Virus record (IMG/VR): IMGVR_UViG_3300043429_000487
Span: 1 to 23,108 of that record
Reading direction: 5' to 3' (one strand)
From: a virus
Length of the DNA: 23,108 bases
Position 1 is the stretch's first letter. Each line of letters starts with the position of its first letter. Shown in pieces: positions 10,279-20,586 of this stretch. The position numbers and the translations under genes are program-made. The notes under the pieces are model-generated. The model ran no database searches. It had not been told where the DNA came from and saw nothing but the letters and a program-made list of their open reading frames with translations.

Positions 10279-10929
10279 ATGGCTTTAGATAAGAAAATAA
10301 TTCAAGAAATAAAAAGATATCATAATATCAATAATTACATTTTAGAACAAGCGGAAGAACTACCGGCAGACCTTCCCGCTGATTTGGGAGCAGTTGCACC
10401 TCCAGAAGGTGGAACAACACCCCCACCACCAGCGGCACCTGCACCTCCAGCCGCTCCAGCAGGACCTGAAGTCATTGATGTTGAAACTGATGATGAAGTT
10501 GAAAAAATCGATGACAAAGGAGATTCTGAAGAAAAAGGTGGAGAAACGGAAGAATTGGAAATAACTGATTTGGTAGATTCTCAAAAAACTATTGAAACAA
10601 AACAAGAAGAATATTTTGACAACCTATTCGCCCAACTTTCAAATCTTGAATCCAAATTACAAGATATGGATTTAGTTGTTCAAAAACTTAATTCACTTGA
10701 AGCAAAAATTGAAAAATACAGAGAAAAAACTCCTCAAGAAAAACTTGAGTTAAGGACTTACGATTCTTATCCATTTAATCAAAAGTTAACTGATTTTTTT
10801 GAAGATAAAAAAGATGAGATGGAAAAGACAGGAAAACATGATTACGTTTTAACATCAGATGACGTTAAGGATATTAATGTAAACGATATCAAAGGTTCAT
10901 TTTTCCCTGGTTTAGATAAGAAATTTTAA
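10279..10929 (+). CDS. Pro/Ala-rich, acidic, coiled-coil protein, function unknown
   Basis: A 216-aa protein with a clear modular build. Residues 1-28 form a basic then acidic helix (MALDKKIIQEIKRYHNINN). Residues 37-65 are a low-complexity Pro/Ala linker (TTPPPPAAPAPPAAPAGP). Residues 66-100 are strongly acidic. Residues about 108-150 form a heptad-like predicted coiled coil (FAQLSNLESKLQDMDLVV, then QKLNSLEAKIEKY). The C-terminal 50 residues are charged and end in FFPGLDKKF. The linker is a G+C-rich island in A+T-rich DNA. I do not recognise the family. The domain order would suit a virion or scaffold protein, and its place as last gene before a terminator in the structural block fits that, but this is inference. 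Confidence 0.7.
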   Translation: MALDKKIIQEIKRYHNINNYILEQAEELPADLPADLGAVAPPEGGTTPPPPAAPAPPAAPAGPEVIDVETDDEVEKIDDKGDSEEKGGETEELEITDLVDSQKTIETKQEEYFDNLFAQLSNLESKLQDMDLVVQKLNSLEAKIEKYREKTPQEKLELRTYDSYPFNQKLTDFFEDKKDEMEKTGKHDYVLTSDDVKDINVNDIKGSFFPGLDKKF

Positions 10930-10992: not shown

Positions 10993-11024
10993 TTTGACAT
11001 AATCAGAAATGAATGTTATCTTTG
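10993..11024 (+). promoter_or_regulatory. Bacteroidota-type promoter (TTTG - 20 nt - TATCTTTG)
   Basis: TTTG at 10993-10996 and TATCTTTG at 11017-11024 match the -33 TTTG and -7 TAnnTTTG elements of the primary sigma factor of Bacteroidota, with a 20-nt spacer inside the usual 19-21 range. Transcription would start around 11030, giving a leader of about 25 nt before the ATG at 11056. The position, between a terminator and the gene 32-like start, supports it. It is the only exact match I found at a gene boundary in this window, and the best indication of the host phylum. Confidence 0.8.
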
Positions 11025-11055: not shown

Positions 11056-11895
11056 ATGAACGCTTTAGAAGCCGTATTGGCACAGTATGAAAAAAATCAG
11101 TTAGGGGGTTCCCAATCGAAAATGTCGCAAGACGAAAGAATGAAAAAGTATTTTGCTCTAATCCTGAGTGATAAAGAAAAATCAGGACAAAGAAGAATTA
11201 GAATTTTACCTACACTTGACGGGTCTTCTCCATTTAAAGAGGCTTGGTATCACGAAATCCAAGTTGGTGGACAATGGCAGAAATTCTACGACCCAGGAAA
11301 AAATGACAATGAACGGTCACCGTTGAATGAAGTTTATGAAGAACTTATGGCAACAGGTAAAGAATCAGATAAAGAACTTGCAAAGCAATATAAGGCGAGA
11401 AAGTTTTATATTGTTAAAGTTATAGATAGAGACAATCCTGAGGATGGACCAAAGTTTTGGAGGTTCAAGCATAACTACAAGAATGAAGGTATCCTCGACA
11501 AGATTATTCCAATCTGGAGGAACAAAGGAGACATCACCGACCCTGAGACTGGCCGAGACCTTTTAATCGACCTGGCGAAGTCTAAGACCCCTAAGGGTAA
11601 AGAATATACAACAGTTGCGGCCATAATGTATGATGACCCGACACCTGTTCACACAGACCCAGCACAAGCCAAAGAATGGATTAACGATTCTATGAGTTGG
11701 ACTGATGTTTATTCCAAGAAGCCAGTTGAATATTTGGAAGCAATTGCAAGAGGTGAAACACCAAGATGGGATAGTGAGAAAGGTGGTTATGTTTATGGTG
11801 ACGCTACAACTTCCGAAGAAACATTCGGTGGAGCCAAATCATCTTATTCTGACCCACAGGCAGACCTTGAACCTGACAACGACTTACCTTTTTAA
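11056..11895 (+). CDS. 32: gp32-like single-stranded DNA-binding protein
   Basis: A 279-aa protein with the layout of T4 gp32 (301 aa). The N-terminal segment is short and partly basic (MNALEAVLAQYEKNQ). The OB-fold core runs over residues about 45-195, with RRIRILPTLDG, HEIQVGGQWQKFYDPG, ARKFYIVKVIDRDNPE, FWRFKHNYKNEGILDKI and GRDLLIDLAKSK, which match the gp32 order. The tail is Ser/Gly-rich and acidic, ending EPDNDLPF. gp32 coats ssDNA cooperatively at the fork and its acidic tail docks replication and recombination proteins. Two oddities: there is no cysteine anywhere, so the zinc site of T4 gp32 (one His, three Cys) cannot exist, and the C-terminus resembles the DDDIPF tip of bacterial SSB. 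It has its own host-type promoter and lies two genes before uvsX. The leader has no Shine-Dalgarno sequence. Confidence 0.8.
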   Translation: MNALEAVLAQYEKNQLGGSQSKMSQDERMKKYFALILSDKEKSGQRRIRILPTLDGSSPFKEAWYHEIQVGGQWQKFYDPGKNDNERSPLNEVYEELMATGKESDKELAKQYKARKFYIVKVIDRDNPEDGPKFWRFKHNYKNEGILDKIIPIWRNKGDITDPETGRDLLIDLAKSKTPKGKEYTTVAAIMYDDPTPVHTDPAQAKEWINDSMSWTDVYSKKPVEYLEAIARGETPRWDSEKGGYVYGDATTSEETFGGAKSSYSDPQADLEPDNDLPF

Positions 11896-11919: not shown

Positions 11920-12420
11920 ATGGCTAATCCTTGTTGGAATGTAATTACATTTACCGCTTCAGAAGAAGCGCTTACTTGGTTGGAAACTGAACTTAAAAGA
12001 CTTGAGGGTCTTTATGATAATGGAGGTGATCCAGCTCACGCTTTGGCAGTTTATGAACTTTTTGCAAATGAAGAAAGATTTGGCTCCGATGGTTTGGGTG
12101 CTAGATATGTAAAAGTTTTCAGATTTGATAACTTCGGAGATTATCTAACTATGGAGTGTGAAAGTGCTTGGCATTGTCCTACAAAGATGATTGAGAATAT
12201 CGTTGAACTTTTACAGGAAAAATCTGGTGATACTACCGTTGTTGCCGATGGTCATTACTATGAAGAGGGAGTTGGATTCGCAGGTATTTTCAGATGTGAT
12301 AAGGAAAACGGATACAGAAACGATGAAACCAACCTTCCTGAATACGATGAGTTTGAAGATGATTTTGATTTTGAAGAGGATGTTCTTCGTCCTACTTTGA
12401 ATGAATTGAGTGTGGATTAA
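11920..12420 (+). CDS. Api92/YubB-like ferredoxin-fold protein, function unknown
   Basis: A 166-aa protein. Its start MANPCWNVITFTASEEALTW and the later segments YLTMECESAWHCPTKMIENI and HYYEEGVGFAGIFRC follow the pattern of the Api92/YubB-type family ('MANWCxNxVxFxG...', a 'ESAWxPP' segment, then 'YxExGxxFxG') found in phages and plasmids. That family has a ferredoxin-like fold and no established biochemical role. The last 40 residues are highly acidic (EYDEFEDDFDFEEDV), which could mimic DNA or recruit a basic partner; that is speculation. It lies 24 nt after the gene 32-like stop and is followed at once by a terminator, so the two are probably co-expressed. Family assignment is by eye. Confidence 0.6.
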   Translation: MANPCWNVITFTASEEALTWLETELKRLEGLYDNGGDPAHALAVYELFANEERFGSDGLGARYVKVFRFDNFGDYLTMECESAWHCPTKMIENIVELLQEKSGDTTVVADGHYYEEGVGFAGIFRCDKENGYRNDETNLPEYDEFEDDFDFEEDVLRPTLNELSVD

Positions 12421-12473: not shown

Positions 12474-13478
12474 ATGGCAATTAAAAAAAATGATTTTTCG
12501 TCAATAAAGAAGAAGTTTTCTACTTCCGCAAAATATAAACCACAACGATTCTTTGACTTGGGTTCTGAGTTCTTGGATGCTGTTGGATTACCTGGTCCTG
12601 CCATCGGTCACCTAAATATGTTTTTGGGTCACTCAGATACAGGTAAAACAACTGCTGCAATCAAGACAGCCGTGTCTGCTCAAAAGATGGGAATACTTCC
12701 TGTGTTCATAATCACCGAACAGAAATGGAGTTTTGAACATGCCAAATTGATGGGTCTTGAGTGCCAAGAAGTGGTGGATGAAGAAACAGGAGAACTGGAT
12801 TGGGATGGGTTCTATATGTTTAATAATAACTTTAGTTATATTGAACAAATCACCGACTACATAAATGAATTATTGGATGCCCAAGAGAAGGGGGAGATAG
12901 AATATGATTTGTGTTTCATCTGGGATTCGGTTGGATCCATACCTTGTAAAATGACATATGAAGGCAAGGGGGGCAAACAACATAATGCTGCCGCATTGGC
13001 GGATAAAATAGGTATGGGTATAAATCAAAGAATTTCAGGTTCTAGAAAGGCGGATTCTAAATATGAAAATACCTTAATTATTTTGAACCAACCATGGGTT
13101 GAGTTACCTGAGAACCCTTTCTCACAACCCAAGATTAAACCCAAAGGAGGGGAGGCAATTTATCTTAATAGTTCGTTGATATTTTTATTTGGAAACCAAA
13201 AAGGTTCTGGAACTACTAAAATAACTGCAACAAAAGATAAAAGGACTGTTAAATTTGCATCTAGAACTAAAATATCTGTTCTTAAAAATCACATAAATGG
13301 ATTGGGATATGAGGATGGTAAAATAATAGTAACTCCGCACGGATTTCTTTCTGGAAAAGATACTGCAGAAGAAAAGTCGTCCATAGAAAAATACAAAAAA
13401 GAGTATTCTGAATATTGGAAAAATATAATTGGTACCGATAGTGATTTTACTCTTAAAGAAGAAACATCTGAAGAATAA
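12474..13478 (+). CDS. uvsX: UvsX/RecA-type recombinase
   Basis: A 334-aa RecA-fold strand-exchange ATPase. The Walker A motif is GHSDTGKTT (residues 52-60), a glutamate stands in the usual place after the next core strand (IITEQ, E82), and Walker B is LCFIWDS (D151). L1-like residues follow at about 160-180 (EGKGGKQHNAAALA), and KPKGGEA at about 220 corresponds to the RecA L2 end 'TTGGNAL'. The length is a little below T4 UvsX (391 aa), mostly at the C-terminus. In T4, UvsX loads on gp32-coated ssDNA with UvsY and drives recombination-dependent replication and repair; no UvsY candidate is evident here. It starts 14 bases after a terminator. Downstream lies an RHH/HNH insertion that does not interrupt the gene. 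Confidence 0.93.
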   Translation: MAIKKNDFSSIKKKFSTSAKYKPQRFFDLGSEFLDAVGLPGPAIGHLNMFLGHSDTGKTTAAIKTAVSAQKMGILPVFIITEQKWSFEHAKLMGLECQEVVDEETGELDWDGFYMFNNNFSYIEQITDYINELLDAQEKGEIEYDLCFIWDSVGSIPCKMTYEGKGGKQHNAAALADKIGMGINQRISGSRKADSKYENTLIILNQPWVELPENPFSQPKIKPKGGEAIYLNSSLIFLFGNQKGSGTTKITATKDKRTVKFASRTKISVLKNHINGLGYEDGKIIVTPHGFLSGKDTAEEKSSIEKYKKEYSEYWKNIIGTDSDFTLKEETSEE

Positions 13479-13530: not shown

Positions 13531-13692
13531 ATGGGAAGAATAAAAAAAACAGAAGATGAAAAAAAAACAAAAGTTTCGGTCGCATTAGACAGAGAACTTT
13601 TAGAATATTATAGAAATCTTCATATAAATTTATCTTCCCTAGTAAATAAACTTCTGAATGATTATAGGGAAAATGTGCACAAAAATTTGTAG
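13531..13692 (+). CDS. Small ribbon-helix-helix (Arc/MetJ-type) DNA-binding protein
   Basis: A 53-aa open reading frame starting MGRIKKTEDEKKT and ending at TAG (13690-13692). It has the classic RHH layout: a basic N-terminus, an alternating beta strand KVSVALD (residues 14-20), helix A RELLEYYRNLHI (21-32), then a turn and helix B LSSLVNKLLNDYREN (34-48). Hydrophobic positions of the strand and helices fall in the family's pattern. RHH proteins dimerise through the strands, which enter the DNA major groove. The gene overlaps the HNH endonuclease gene by 20 bases in another frame (+1), suggesting translational coupling. It probably controls the endonuclease, or itself, or helps target DNA; this is inferred from the arrangement. 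Translation checked codon by codon. Confidence 0.75.
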   Translation: MGRIKKTEDEKKTKVSVALDRELLEYYRNLHINLSSLVNKLLNDYRENVHKNL

Positions 13693-14332
13693 TAAGTGTG
13701 GTGTAGAAAAAAATGTTTGTGACTTTGGTAAGTCAAAAACCTCTAAAGATGGATTATTGTATTGTTGTAAGGAGTGTAATAATTTAAGAGGTAAGAAGTA
13801 TAGGGAGGAAAATTATGATAAAGTTTTATCTACTCAAAGGAAATGGAGGAAAGAAAACCCGGAATGGGTTGATAGAAGAAGACGTAAATATTATTTCAAT
13901 AATATTGAATTTTATAAAAATTTTAATAAAGAATGGATAAAACAAAACCCCGAAAAAAGAAAGGAATATAGAGAAAATTACAAACCTAGAAAAATAGAAA
14001 GACATAAAGAGAGAAGAGAAAATGATATTATATTTAATTTAGTTAATAGATTAAGAGGTAGATTATACAAGTATCTTAAAGTAAATCAAATTAGAAAGAC
14101 TAATAAGACATTTGAAATGGTTGGTTGTAGTCCTGAATTTTTGAAAGAACATTTAGAAAAACAATTTGTTGATGGTATGAGTTGGGAGAACAGAAATGAA
14201 TGGCATATTGACCACATAATTCCATTATCTTCAGCAAAAACTGAGGAGGAATTGTTGAAATTATGTCATTACACTAATCTCCAACCTTTATGGGCTGAAG
14301 ATAATATAAAGAAGAGTAACAAAATTTTATAA
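13673..14332 (+). CDS. HNH endonuclease with N-terminal zinc-finger-like motif (probable homing endonuclease)
   Basis: A 219-aa protein from the ATG at 13673, which has the purine-rich AGGGA just upstream; an alternative in-frame ATG at 13658 would add five residues. Residues 6-35 hold two CxxC pairs (CSKC and CKEC) with a GKSKTSKDGL link, a zinc-ribbon-like module common in phage HNH proteins. A long, very basic middle (many Arg/Lys, repeated 'KENPEW / KQNPEK' units) follows, probably contacting DNA. The HNH core is at the C-terminus: HIDHIIPLSSA with the metal-binding His-Asp-His, then TNLQPLWAEDNIKKSNK with the two Asn. Such free-standing genes spread between phages by cutting alleles that lack them. 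It lies between uvsX and the FEN-type nuclease gene, is visibly richer in A+T than both, and overlaps the RHH gene. Confidence 0.88.
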   Translation: MCTKICSKCGVEKNVCDFGKSKTSKDGLLYCCKECNNLRGKKYREENYDKVLSTQRKWRKENPEWVDRRRRKYYFNNIEFYKNFNKEWIKQNPEKRKEYRENYKPRKIERHKERRENDIIFNLVNRLRGRLYKYLKVNQIRKTNKTFEMVGCSPEFLKEHLEKQFVDGMSWENRNEWHIDHIIPLSSAKTEEELLKLCHYTNLQPLWAEDNIKKSNKIL

Positions 14333-14348
14333 CCTATAAAAAACAATA

Positions 14349-15344
14349 ATGACCAAAACTCTTTTGGTTGACGGTGACAATCTTTTTAAGATTGGATTCC
14401 ACGGTGTAAAAGACCTTTTTAGTAATGGAGACCACTTGGGTGGAATCTATTATGTAATCAATACAATTAGAAAATTCTTGGAAGACCACAATCACGATAA
14501 GGTTGTGGTCTTTTGGGATGCTGAATACAACTCATCAATTCGGAAAGGTATTTATCCCCAATATAAGGAGAACCGTCGTGAGACGATGAACGAATACAAG
14601 TATGAGTCGTATTTGACTCAGAAGTCTAGAATTAAACAATATTTAGAGGAGATGTTTGTTCGTCAGGCGGAGATGGTCAATAACGAGGCGGATGATTTGA
14701 TTGCGTATTATTGTAAAATTGCGACTGACGAGGAGATTATCATATTCTCGGCGGATAAGGATTTGACTCAACTTATTTGTGATAGGGTGACCATATATTC
14801 TCCGATTACGAAGGATTATTATAAGAATGGGGATAAGATTAAAATCAATAAAGTTGATATTCCCCATTATAATGTGTTACTTTGCAAAATCTTGGTGGGG
14901 GATAAATCGGATAATATTGATGGAATTATGGGGTTGGGAGAAAAAACTTTGGTCAATTTATTCCCTGATATGCAGGATAAATCATGCACAATAGAAGAAA
15001 TAATGGATAATGCACGAGAAATCAGTCAAAAGAAAAAATCAAAAGTGTTGGAGAATCTTTTGACTGGTAAGACAAAAAGTGGTATTATTGGAGAAGAATT
15101 TTTTATCACAAACAAAAAAATTGTAGATTTGTCTAACCCACTCATTACAGACGATGGAATAGAACTGATTAAACAGATTCATGGAGACTCATTAGACCCA
15201 ACAGACAGGGGTTACAAGAACCTGATGAGAATGATGATGGAAGATGGAATGTTTAACTTTCTGCCGAAGGATGATGATGCGTGGGTTAATTTTATGAAAC
15301 CTTTTACAAAACTTATTAGAAAAGAAAAAAGAAAATTTAATTAA
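14349..15344 (+). CDS. rnh: FEN/T4 RNase H-type 5'-3' nuclease
   Basis: A 331-aa structure-specific 5' nuclease of the FEN-1 / T4 RNase H family (T4: 305 aa), which removes RNA primers and 5' flaps from lagging-strand fragments. Metal-binding acidic motifs appear in order: LLVDGDN (D8), VVFWDAEY (D57), the arch segment YKENRRETM (residues 72-80), NNEADDLIAYY (E113, D115, D116), FSADKDLTQL (D136, D138) and the helix-three-turn-helix GDKSDNIDGIMGLGEKT (D185, D188). All catalytic positions seem intact. It starts 16 nt after the HNH gene and ends 1 nt before the next ATG. Its place beside the helicase and near gene 32 and uvsX fits lagging-strand processing. Confidence 0.9.
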   Translation: MTKTLLVDGDNLFKIGFHGVKDLFSNGDHLGGIYYVINTIRKFLEDHNHDKVVVFWDAEYNSSIRKGIYPQYKENRRETMNEYKYESYLTQKSRIKQYLEEMFVRQAEMVNNEADDLIAYYCKIATDEEIIIFSADKDLTQLICDRVTIYSPITKDYYKNGDKIKINKVDIPHYNVLLCKILVGDKSDNIDGIMGLGEKTLVNLFPDMQDKSCTIEEIMDNAREISQKKKSKVLENLLTGKTKSGIIGEEFFITNKKIVDLSNPLITDDGIELIKQIHGDSLDPTDRGYKNLMRMMMEDGMFNFLPKDDDAWVNFMKPFTKLIRKEKRKFN

Positions 15345-15829: not shown

Positions 15830-17203
15830 ATGAATAAAAATTTTGATTACTTAGGAAATACGTTCCAGATTCAACTATTAAACCAAGTTATAGTTGATAA
15901 GGACTTTGCCCAATCAATTATGGGGGTTATTGAGAGCTCTTATTTTGACAACAAATACTTCAAGATTATCATTCAGATGATTAAGGAGTATTATAAAAAA
16001 TACCAATCCACACCGAACTTTGAGACGCTTGACCAGATTGTGAAATCTGAAATATCTCAGGAGTTAATATCAAAGATTGTGATTGACACTCTTGGACAGA
16101 TAAAGAATGCTCCTGATGAGGGTTCCATGTTTGTTCAGGAGAAAGCCTTGAAATTCTGTAAGCAACAGGAGTTGCAAAAGGCTATGGATAGGGCAAACAA
16201 AATCATATCGGAGGGTGACTTTGAATCGTATGATAAGGTCGAGGGATTGGTTAGGACAGCGTTACAAGTTGGAGAGGTAGATAAGGGAACGACTGATATT
16301 TTTGCGGGTTTGGATACGGTTTTGGAGGAAGATTATCGACATCCAGTTCCTATGGGTATTCCTGGTATTGATAGGTTGCTGAAGGGGGGACTTGCCAAAG
16401 GTGAGATTGGGGTTATTCTTGCTCCGACTGGAGTTGGAAAATCAACGATATTAACCAAGATTGCAAATACCGCTTTTAATATGGGTTATAATGTTTTGCA
16501 GATATTCTTTGAGGACAACCCAAAGATTATTCAAAGGAAACATTTTACAATATGGACTGGTATTGCTCCCGATGACCTTGCCAATCATAAGGATGAAGTT
16601 TTATCCAAAATCACGGAGATTAAGGAGACCATGAAAAACAAACTCATTCTTAAAAAATTGGCTTCAGATTCCGTAACTATGCAACAAATTAAAAATCAGG
16701 TTCGGAAGATGATTGCTGATGGTGATAAGATTGATATGATATTATTGGATTATATTGATTGTGTTTTGCCGGATATTGCTCAGGATGAGTGGAAGGCTGA
16801 AGGTTCGGTGATGAGGGGGTTTGAAGCTATGTGTCACGAACTTGATTTGGTGGGTTGGACGGCAACACAAGGAAATAGAAGTTCAATATCATCTGAAGTT
16901 GTAACGACAGACCAAATGGGAGGTTCAATTAAAAAGGCTCAGGTTGGTCACGTAATTATTACGGTGGCAAAGACATTGCAACAAAAAGAAATGAACTTGG
17001 CAACAATTGCGATTACCAAATCCCGATTGGGAAAAGATGGTGTCGTGTTTGAAAATTGCAAATTCAATAATGAATTTTTGGAAATAGATACAGAAAGTTC
17101 CGTTACGTTCTTAGGTTTTGAAGAACAACAAGAGGAACGAAAACGAGATAGAGTTAAAGAATTATTAGAAAAAAGAAAACAAAGACAAGAAAATCAAATT
17201 TAA
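15830..17203 (+). CDS. 41: gp41/DnaB-type replicative helicase
   Basis: A 457-aa hexameric helicase of the DnaB / T4 gp41 type (gp41: 475 aa). The N-terminal all-helical domain (residues about 1-115, [19 protein letters not shown]) is followed by a linker and a RecA-like motor with [19 protein letters not shown], Walker [10 protein letters not shown] (198-206), a catalytic-glutamate region FFEDN (E228), Walker B MILLDYID (D307), motif H4 TQGNRS (about 346-351) and an arginine-finger strand TKSRLGKDG (R399). The C-terminus is a charged tail rich in Glu, Arg and Gln. It would translocate 5' to 3' on the lagging strand; no primase gene is seen in this window. It starts 31 nt after the unknown gene and 5 nt before nrdB. 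The leader CCCCAAATTTA lacks a Shine-Dalgarno sequence. Confidence 0.93.
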
Positions 17204-17208
17204 TTATT

Positions 17209-18162
17209 ATGACACAAGAAAAAATTTTACAGGACAATCCTGGCCGTTTCGTTATTTTCCCGATTCAGTATGACGATATTTGGGAATTTTATAAGACACA
17301 TCAAGCCGCGTTTTGGACCGCAGAAGAAGTCGATTTGTCTGGTGACATTCGAGATTGGGAAAAATTATCAGATAATGAAAAGTATTTCATTAAGAATGTA
17401 TTATCATTTTTTGCAGCTTCTGACGGTATTGTTAATGAAAACTTGGCTGAGAATTTCGTAAAAGAAGTTCAATATCCTGAAGCAAAGTTCTTTTATGGAT
17501 TCCAACTTATGATGGAGAACATCCATTCACTTATGTATTCTTTGTTGATTGACACTTATGTGTCTGACCCGAAGGAAAAAGATGAATGTTTCCATGCTAT
17601 TGATAGATTGCCTGCAGTTCAGAAGAAGGCAACTTGGGCATTGAATTGGATTAAGAATAGCACGTTTCAGGAGAGACTGGTTGCATTTGCGGCGGTCGAA
17701 GGTATATTCTTCTCAGGTTCATTCTGTTCTATCTTCTGGTTGAAATCAAGAGGTATTATGCAAGGGTTGTGTAACGCGAACTCTTTGATATTCAAGGATG
17801 AGAATCTACATACAGATTTTGCGATTCATTTGTTAAACAATCACATCGAAAATCGACCAAGTGATGATAGAATAAAAGAAATTCTTTTGTCCGCTTTGGA
17901 GATTGAAAAAGAGTTTATTACAGAATCTCTACCAGTTTCTATGATTGGAATGAACTCCAATTTGATGAAACAATATTTGGAATTTATTACTGACCAACTT
18001 TTGGTAAAATTAAATTGTAAGAAAGTATTTAACGTTGAACAACCATTTAAATTTATGGAACAAATTGCGGTTGAAACGAAGGGTAATTTCTTTGAATCAA
18101 GAACAATTGAATACCAAAAGGCTAAATTGGGTGAATCATTAACTTTTACAGAAGATTTTTAA
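17209..18162 (+). CDS. nrdB: Class I ribonucleotide reductase, small (beta) subunit
   Basis: A 317-aa R2 protein that holds the diiron-tyrosyl radical cofactor. All six metal ligands are present: D42 (EEVDLS), E103 and H106 ([10 protein letters not shown]), E164 (AAVEG), E198 and H201 (KDENLH). The radical tyrosine is Y110. The motifs [29 protein letters not shown] and [13 protein letters not shown] are nearly those of eukaryote-type R2, rather than E. coli or T4 NrdB. The C-terminal LTFTEDF is the short peptide that docks in the alpha subunit. With NrdA it makes dNDPs for phage replication. It lies 5 nt after the helicase and 3 nt before nrdA, i.e. in beta-alpha order, the opposite of E. coli nrdAB. 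Complete, with no missing key residue. Confidence 0.96.
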
Positions 18163-18165
18163 TAT

Positions 18166-20586
18166 ATGATGTCCTTAAAGATTAAGAAAAGAGACGGTGA
18201 GGAGGTTTCATTCAACCCTCAAAAGATTTATAACAGAATAAAGAGAGCCTCAAAAGGTTTGAATGTAAATTCGGATGAAATTTTTATTAAGGTAATAACA
18301 TCAGTCCCAACCGAAGGATTTGTTTCCACCAAAGAATTGGATAAATTAATTTCAGAAATATCCGCCTCCTATACTGGTAGTCATCACGACTACTCGAGAC
18401 TTGCCGCAAGTATTGCGGTTACTTCTCACCAAAAAGAAACTAACGAAAGTTTTAGTGAGACGATGATGATGTTGAATGAACAAGGAATCGTCAATGACAA
18501 ACTTATTGAGTTGATTAAAATGTGGGGGGAGAAAGAAATTGATGCTGCGTTAGTTCATGAAAATGATTTCACTTTTGATTATTTTGGATGGAGGTCATTA
18601 TATGAAATGTATTTGCTCAGAGATAATAACGGTGTTGTGGTTGAAAGACCACAACACATGTATATGAGAGTTGCCCTTTGGGTTACAGATTCTTTTGAGG
18701 AAGCATTGGAATATTATAAGTCATTATCAAACCAGTTAATATCAAAGGCTACTCCGATAATGATTAACTCAGGAACAAAGATTCCACAACTTGCATCTTG
18801 TGTTCTACATTATAATGATGAAGATTCAAGAGATGGTTTGTTGAACAGTTTGAGAGATATTTCAACATATTCTGCGGATGCTGCTGGTATTGGACTTTCA
18901 GTTTCAAACATCAGAAGTAAAGAAAGTAGAATTAAAACATCAGGTGGATATGCCGGTGGTGTTTTGAAATATTTGAAAATTGTTAATGAATCTCTCAGAT
19001 TCTTTAATCAACAAGGAAGAAGACCTGGAAGTGCGGCCATTTATATGGAACCTTGGCACAAGGACATTTTTGACTTGTTGGATATTAAGAAGAACACAGG
19101 TGCTGAAGAATTGAGAGCGAGAGATTTATTTACCTCAATTTGGATTCCTGACAACTTTATGAGAGCGGTTAAAAACGATACAGACTGGTATTTGTTCTGT
19201 CCAAATGACATTAAGAATGCTGGATTGAAACCACTTCAAGATTGTTATGGTGAAGAATATGAAGCGGTATATGAGCAAGCGGTTCAATTAGGAATCGGTA
19301 AGAAAGTGAAAGCCCAAACTGTTTGGAATAAGATTGTTGAATCTCAAATTGAGACTGGTGTTCCATACCTTTGTTCAAAGGATAATGCAAATAAGAAAAC
19401 CAACCATCAAAATATTGGTGTGATTAAACAATCAAATCTTTGTAATGAGATTTATCAATATACTGATGAAACAACCACGGCCATTTGCACCCTCTCATCT
19501 ATGGTTTTGAAAAACTACGTTAAGCCGAATGGTAAATTTGATTTTGAATTGTTACATAATGAAACAAGAAAAGTCGTCCGTTCGTTGAACAAAGTGATTG
19601 ACATCAATTCTTACTCAACCCAAAAAGGGAAAAAAGGAGGATTGGAACAACGAGCAATTGCAATCGGAGTTCAAGGTCTTGCAGATGTGTTCTATTTGAT
19701 GGATTATGTTTTTACCTCCGAAGATGCGAGAAAACTCAATAAAAACATCTTTGAAACAATCTATCACGGAGCCATCACAGAAAGTATGGAGTTGTGTAAG
19801 TCAGGGAAATACGAACCTTATAAGTTTTTCAAAGGGTCTCCGATGTCAAAAGGAATATTCCAATTTGATATGTGGGGTGTAAATCAAGATGAACTTATAT
19901 ATGATTGGGAAAGTTTGAAAGAAGATGTGACGAAATATGGTATATGTAATTCATTATTTACGGCACAAATGCCCGTGGCTTCTTCTGCAAAAATCACAGG
20001 TAGTTTTGAAATGACAGAACCAGCACACTCTGCCTTATTTAATAGACGAGTAGTTGGAGGTGAAATTCTAATCGTGAATAAGTATTTGATTTATGATTTG
20101 GAAAAGTTGGGATTGTGGAATGAGGACCTAAAGAATGAAATTATTATGAATGATGGTTCAATTCAAAACATTAACTTCAACAATTATTTGGATTCTGAAG
20201 ATAAGAATTACAATAAAAAAGTTGATAGACTTGAACACATACTTCCAAAATATAGGACGATTTGGGAAATCTCTCAAAGAGATTTGATTGATATGGCGGC
20301 TGATAGGGCACCATTTATAGACCAATCACAATCTATGAATATCTATATGGCGAATCCTACTCTATCCAAAATAACATCTTCACACTTCCACGGCTGGCAA
20401 AAAGGTTTGAAGACATTATGTTATTATGTTAGAACAAGGGCAGTATCAACAGGTGCTAAACATTTGGCTTTGGATATATCACAGGTTAAAAACAAACCAA
20501 ATCAATATATTAATAAAGTTGAACCTTCAGAGACTGTTCAAAAACCGGAAGAATCTCCATTTGAATGTTTTGGGTGTAGTTCTTAA
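18166..20586 (+). CDS. nrdA: Class I ribonucleotide reductase, large (alpha) subunit
   Basis: An 806-aa R1 protein. An N-terminal ATP-cone is visible (KIKKRDGEEVSFNPQKIYNR, residues 4-24), so overall activity is probably controlled by ATP/dATP. Active-site residues are C212 (LASCVLHY), N424-C426-E428 (SNLCNEI) and C441 (ICTLSSM). The radical relay is Y753-Y754 (CYYVRTR). The swinging-arm cysteines C801 and C804 (CFGCSS) form CxxC as in eukaryote-type R1, rather than the CxxxxC of E. coli. The substrate-specificity region (ADAAGIGLSVSNIRS, then GRRPGSAAIYMEPWH) is conserved. It starts 3 nt after nrdB; two adjacent ATG codons (18166, 18169) are possible starts. A strong terminator follows. No intein or intron is seen, although phage nrd genes often carry them. 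Confidence 0.96.
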   Translation: MMSLKIKKRDGEEVSFNPQKIYNRIKRASKGLNVNSDEIFIKVITSVPTEGFVSTKELDKLISEISASYTGSHHDYSRLAASIAVTSHQKETNESFSETMMMLNEQGIVNDKLIELIKMWGEKEIDAALVHENDFTFDYFGWRSLYEMYLLRDNNGVVVERPQHMYMRVALWVTDSFEEALEYYKSLSNQLISKATPIMINSGTKIPQLASCVLHYNDEDSRDGLLNSLRDISTYSADAAGIGLSVSNIRSKESRIKTSGGYAGGVLKYLKIVNESLRFFNQQGRRPGSAAIYMEPWHKDIFDLLDIKKNTGAEELRARDLFTSIWIPDNFMRAVKNDTDWYLFCPNDIKNAGLKPLQDCYGEEYEAVYEQAVQLGIGKKVKAQTVWNKIVESQIETGVPYLCSKDNANKKTNHQNIGVIKQSNLCNEIYQYTDETTTAICTLSSMVLKNYVKPNGKFDFELLHNETRKVVRSLNKVIDINSYSTQKGKKGGLEQRAIAIGVQGLADVFYLMDYVFTSEDARKLNKNIFETIYHGAITESMELCKSGKYEPYKFFKGSPMSKGIFQFDMWGVNQDELIYDWESLKEDVTKYGICNSLFTAQMPVASSAKITGSFEMTEPAHSALFNRRVVGGEILIVNKYLIYDLEKLGLWNEDLKNEIIMNDGSIQNINFNNYLDSEDKNYNKKVDRLEHILPKYRTIWEISQRDLIDMAADRAPFIDQSQSMNIYMANPTLSKITSSHFHGWQKGLKTLCYYVRTRAVSTGAKHLALDISQVKNKPNQYINKVEPSETVQKPEESPFECFGCSS

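Follow-up and report, generated by a model that had tools for sequence, protein, structure and literature searches.

The window, by which is meant the whole 23-kb IMG/VR record analysed here, encodes a true gp32 whose flexible tail closes on a strictly conserved C-terminal tip of the bacterial SSB type (SSB-Ct). This tail is best explained as a selected docking peptide with the chemistry of the SSB tip, given that a fixed end is kept on a linker of free length. On the reading that we rate slightly better than even, this gp32 comes from an uncultured group of T4-type phages, probably infecting Bacteroidota, and its 14-residue terminal module docks as an SSB-Ct does, with a phage-encoded main partner and perhaps host proteins as well. 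The gene and its parts are as follows.

11056-11895, plus strand: gp32-family ssDNA-binding protein gene, ATG start, 279 amino acids, zero cysteines (open reading frame and translation).
11185-11760, plus strand: predicted gp32-type OB-fold core, residues ~44-235 (AlphaFold2 model, Foldseek, alignment to T4).
11800-11850, plus strand: low-complexity linker of variable length, residues 249-265 (pLDDT, substitution counts).
11851-11892, plus strand: fixed-length C-terminal module with a putative docking role, residues 266-279, DPQADLEPDNDLPF.
11881-11892, plus strand: SSB-like tip DLPF, with invariant Pro and Phe.

The protein is identified as gp32 by its family matches, its predicted fold and its replication-gene neighbours. 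It matches Pfam PF08804 (gp32) at 42.9 bits against a curated cut-off of 26.8, as well as two PHROG SSB families (1192 and 224), and the minus strand across 11056-11895 has stop codons throughout. Searches of PDB sequences with the protein alone or with an 89-row alignment returned chance matches only, and a fold search was therefore needed. The AlphaFold2 model, made from 89 aligned relatives and of moderate confidence (mean pLDDT 65.9), has as its best PDB match in Foldseek the T4 gp32 core (1gpc; E 1.2e-9, probability 1.00, TM 0.49/0.60), with RB69 gp32 also among the best solved structures. The bacterial SSB fold was absent from the confident fold matches of this model, and PF00436 (bacterial SSB) had no match in the window or in an hmmscan of the protein. 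A preliminary description had called the protein gp32-like and proposed structure prediction against gp32 (1GPC) and SSB as a check, with a distinct fold counting against it; the Pfam score and the fold match uphold that identification. The window protein also has the acidic C-terminal tail on a flexible linker that is a trait of the family, with pLDDT below 50 over residues 250-266 and 277-279. No gp32 relatives were found in bacterial genomes, and a distant multi-family gp32 alignment was too divergent to seed a scan.

In T4 gp32, the zinc ligands are His64, Cys77, Cys87 and Cys90. Alignment to T4 places His66 of the window protein at the His64 position and Pro, Ser and Asn at the three cysteine positions, so that the T4-type zinc site of one His and three Cys is absent; the site is not universal in PF08804 and hence does not define the family. 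Cysteine is lacking altogether in 103/118 distinct relatives, and the other 15 have a single one outside the zinc site (contexts FACIL and DPCP). The zinc cysteines are also missing from two cyanophage gp32s, from that of Microcystis phage Mel-JY01 and from 55/55 distinct proteins of the group of Flavobacterium phage immuto, and are present in the gp32 of Lysinibacillus phage LysYB2. Across these alignments, loss of the zinc cysteines is widespread among gp32s and not peculiar to the window protein. The absence of cysteine from all 279 residues had been described correctly; the accompanying claim that the OB fold must be stabilised differently was an over-reading, since the cyanophage, Microcystis-phage and immuto-group proteins also lack the site and its loss needs no special explanation. 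Cysteine loss was accordingly rejected as a special feature.

The tail was followed in 118 distinct full-length relatives collected without selecting on it. All of them end in [LM]PF (98 LPF, 20 MPF), and DPQ stands exactly 14 residues from the C-terminus in 117/118. The clade consensus of the module is DPQ-x5-[DSE]-x-[DEN]-[LM]-P-F, position -4 being D, E or N in the 76 relatives tabulated, and the linker ahead of it is scrambled in sequence and varies in length. The window gp32, whose last residues are EPDNDLPF, and its clade share the conserved acidic-hydrophobic-Pro-Phe ending of an SSB-Ct. Codon changes were counted on a core tree of 76 of the 118 relatives: Pro278 has 20 and Phe279 has 10, none of which alters the amino acid, and Leu277 has seven with one amino-acid change (to Met), against a mean of 9.7 amino-acid changes at each linker site. 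The SSB-like DNDLPF tip noted in the preliminary description is thus real and under strong selection, and the homologue alignment suggested there for its conservation leaves no exception. In a core-only tree with tails removed, a single branch (support 100/97, with some outgroup branches long) separates all sampled [LM]PF proteins from the rest, which gives the tip a single origin.

The module is also highly specific to this protein. In a 321-kb relative, gp32 is the sole one of 382 ORFs to end in [ILMVF]PF. A scan of IMG/VR DNA with the pattern DPQ-x7-D-[ILMF]-P-F-stop found at least 80 loci; 79/80 among the matches listed are gp32s, reaching down to about 50% identity, one is a 17-residue frame, and no other phage protein sharing the 14-mer is among them. 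With these matches the set grows to at least 173 distinct proteins, 147 LPF and 26 MPF among those listed, and because the scan required the tip, only the 118 give an unselected count. As a bare DNA pattern, the 14-residue module is a clean marker for picking the gp32 clade from metagenomes.

Close relatives of the window lie on records of up to 326 kb. Among isolated phages, Flavobacterium phage immuto comes closest by UvsX and ranks among the closest by baseplate protein, and it has the same gene order SSB, recombinase, exonuclease, helicase, NrdB, NrdA. A 70% identical NrdB is encoded next to a helicase of phage type on a contig that binning assigned to a Bacteroidota MAG. Bacteroidota is the likely host phylum, given the host of immuto, this NrdB and the type of promoter found upstream of gp32. 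The surrounding features are listed below.

10993-11024, plus strand: probable own promoter of gp32, TTGACA-17-TATCTT, also readable as Bacteroidota-type TTTG-N-TAnnTTTG.
12474-13478, plus strand: UvsX/RecA-like recombinase, candidate partner of the tip (PHROG 97 UvsX-like, E 8e-17).
13658-14332: HNH/endonuclease VII-like gene between UvsX and the exonuclease.
14349-15344, plus strand: 5'-3' exonuclease (RNase H-like), a replication neighbour (Pfam 5_3_exonuc_N, E 4e-30).
15830-17203, plus strand: DnaB-like replicative helicase (gp41 type), a replication neighbour (PHROG 19, E 7e-63).
17209-20586: class I RNR (NrdB, NrdA), after the helicase.

The UvsX-like protein is 44% identical to the recombinase adjoining the SSB gene of immuto. 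Upstream of gp32, the promoter scan scored 10 of 12 matches together with a TG extension, and the full Bacteroidota-type motif occurs in 14/65 relatives compared with 0.2% in shuffles. The 166-aa gene directly after gp32 (11920-12420) has no match in Pfam, PHROG or NCBIfam. An HNH homologue is found at the locus in 12 of the 112 relatives with both neighbours, most of the rest having a gap of <150 bases, and the gene looks like a free-standing (homing-type) insertion. Other observations concern the relatives. Many of them (e.g., L051 and L052) have a hairpin, a T run and then TTTGAC with a -7-like box ahead of gp32, which looks like a terminator and promoter unit belonging to gp32 itself. The place after the helicase, held by the class I enzyme in the window, is taken in the 321-kb relative by a class II-like, B12-dependent reductase (L119:4783-6645). 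Short N-terminal peptides such as MKYIITESQLK..MMEQ or MNLNENISRVKELMG are common to many proteins (321-kb relative, L118-L134; window, 10279-10929), and [LIM]xE[QA] occurs in the first 45 residues of 50/382 ORFs of the 321-kb relative where 15 are expected; these may be leaders of the T4 type, which direct proteins to the capsid and are removed by the prohead protease.

In the proposed mechanism, the OB core would coat ssDNA while the flexible linker of free length presents the fixed module ending in acidic-[LM]-P-F-COOH. The terminal Phe and acidic residues would enter a basic-rimmed hydrophobic pocket, as in SSB-Ct binding, and docking would bring enzymes to gp32-coated ssDNA. The main partner would be a phage recombination or replication protein, for example the UvsX-like recombinase or its mediator, and the module may also bind host proteins that have a pocket for SSB-Ct; phage-encoded partners are favoured by analogy with phages HK620 and T7, as set out at the end. 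The 321-kb relative encodes a family-B polymerase, a primase-like protein, a UmuC-like polymerase, an SNF2-type helicase and a gp47-like phosphoesterase, and no bacterial SSB was found in it. Family-B polymerase is present in 7/7 large LPF-clade records and family A in 0/5 LPF-clade records tested, and most sister-group records match family A, a comparison that amounts to a single phylogenetic contrast between the tip groups. A simple dependence of tip type on polymerase family is made less likely by some sister-group phages, which have family B as well.

The preliminary description had suggested that a host-type tip could capture host SSB partners such as RecQ, PriA or RecO. In that case the tip would mimic the host SSB-Ct and recruit or titrate SSB-interacting proteins, primase also among them, to phage ssDNA. 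The resemblance is close: among 70 Bacteroidota SSBs, 62 end in LPF, six in IPF and two lack the tip, DLPF forms the last four residues in 59, and net charge over the last 12 residues (-3 to -6 in the phage clade) is similar. On the other hand, DPQ is found nowhere within the final 35 residues of these 70 host SSBs, and not one of them terminates in MPF, the variant of 20/118 relatives. Flavobacterium phage immuto, moreover, ends in KFDDLFN, and since it lacks the PF tip, the tip is not needed for life in Bacteroidota. LPF also ends the SSBs of other phyla, which makes the resemblance to the host tip unspecific. The DPQ element, the MPF variant and tipless immuto, as seen in the alignments, speak against simple host mimicry. 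The chemistry would nevertheless allow it, because work on E. coli SSB-Ct peptides found the IPF end to be indispensable, with ExoI binding more tightly once Leu replaces Ile and RecO accepting both Leu and norleucine (PMC10143822). By these ExoI and RecO results LPF is a competent SSB-Ct ligand and MPF probably one, and the phage tip appears chemically fit for SSB-Ct pockets. In addition, the ORF14 SSB of lactococcal phage bIL67, a non-bacterial-type protein of 123 aa ending in ...DEQLPF, can in part stand in for the defective SSB of E. coli ssb-1 (PMC3208561), so that host partners stay under consideration. On balance, recruitment of host proteins by mimicry is a tentative explanation that we regard as rather unlikely, and we would hold no more firmly that a clade of large T4-type phages has equipped its gp32 with an SSB tip of the host type, which makes host SSB-interacting proteins read gp32-coated ssDNA as SSB-coated. 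If true, a gp32 would be seen here for the first time to mimic the SSB hub.

A second alternative concerns the descent of the tip, and is bound up with the ends of other gp32 groups. Those of the immuto group read KFDDLFN(E) in 79/79 IMG/VR matches, with no PF tip, and the Mel-JY01 group has AFDDLFN and similar (70 distinct proteins); the distinct sister-group proteins, 125 in all, end in F-x-x-L-F-like motifs. Cyanophage gp32s end in ...LAEED or LASED. Each of the other groups having its own conserved end, a short conserved acidic-hydrophobic end is common to gp32s, and by these comparisons what is special to the window clade is the terminal Pro-Phe together with the DPQ element. Unrelated C-termini in related phages, which the preliminary description had taken as evidence against its reading, are thus found outside the clade and not within it. 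DLPF may therefore be a modified form of an older gp32 end, its likeness to SSB-Ct convergent and its pocket a gp32-type phage pocket: the DDLF of immuto (FDDLF) and of the Microcystis-phage group (AFDDLFN) is near DDLPF in letters, and T4 has DLDDLLNDL. However, terminal P-F-COOH and the DPQ element are without counterpart in the sister groups, and the ends are so short that homology is not demonstrable; we treat this descent as possible, with the odds against it. The sister groups themselves (L220-L299, L427-L506) have a conserved end F-[DNK]-x-L-F-[N..], to which the same partner question applies. The tip was rejected as a general trait of Bacteroidota phages on account of the immuto end and of Tenacibaculum phage pT24, whose PHROG-SSB-like protein ends in VEQAMDAQ. 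In Salinibacter phage M8CRM-1 (L509:11091-11501), the annotated phage single-strand binding protein ends in DDELPW, with Trp replacing the terminal Phe.

The acidic tip might instead act in cis, folding onto the OB groove until displaced by ssDNA and so tuning affinity rather than recruiting proteins. Regulation of this kind is reported for three acidic tails, those of E. coli SSB, T7 gp2.5 and T4 gp32 (see the discussions in PMC11551737, PMC5686142, PMC5928155). A role of charge alone, however, would not hold Pro and Phe constant while their codons changed silently 30 times, nor would it fix the spacing of 14 residues, and we consider cis regulation improbable. Chance likeness of a short peptide, conceivable where only four residues are compared and LPF is a short string, is contradicted by the 118/118 conservation, single origin, purely silent codon changes and 1/382 ORFs, and can be practically discounted.

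An SSB-Ct-like tip on a gp32 was not described in the largely open-access literature searched; SSB-like tips on other phage SSBs are already known. As the textbook hub on phage ssDNA, gp32 is generally regarded as working for phage partners, by means of a tail of its own type. An exceptionless SSB-Ct-like tip in a large clade of environmental phages allows a direct and inexpensive test of whether the bacterial SSB hub and a T4-type replisome have docking pockets in common, be it through capture of host enzymes or through phage enzymes with an SSB-Ct-type pocket. The uncultured phages that carry the tip may thus plug into docking pockets of the bacterial type.

Compared with T4-type gp32 (PF08804; structures 1GPC, 2A1K and 8GME), the window protein has the same OB core, an acidic C-terminal tail behind a flexible linker, and UvsX, helicase, nuclease and RNR neighbours. 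The T4 tail ends in DLDDLLNDL whereas that of the window ends in the fixed DPQ...DLPF module, and the zinc cysteines of T4 are missing. The immuto gp32-like protein and its IMG/VR relatives are likewise Cys-free, with the same gene order and a Bacteroidota host (likely for the window), but the immuto protein is ~22% identical to the window gp32 and differs at its end. With the bacterial SSB-Ct (DDDIPF/DDLPF) the clade shares an acidic-hydrophobic-Pro-Phe-COOH ending on a disordered linker; the protein family is different, and the DPQ element and MPF variants belong to the phage clade alone in the comparison with 70 Bacteroidota SSBs. bIL67 ORF14 is similar in being a phage SSB of non-bacterial type with an LPF end, yet is of an unrelated OB family and has no DPQ module. 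T7 gp2.5 has an acidic tail whose terminal Phe is essential, the tail working for the polymerase and helicase that T7 itself encodes; it belongs to a different OB family and has no Pro before the Phe. The HK620 SSB is not a gp32 and is described as forming tetramers, but it too is a phage SSB with an SSB-Ct-like tip, NDYPPF, which is needed for the phage RecA-like protein Sak4 to bind SSB-coated ssDNA (PMC5928155).
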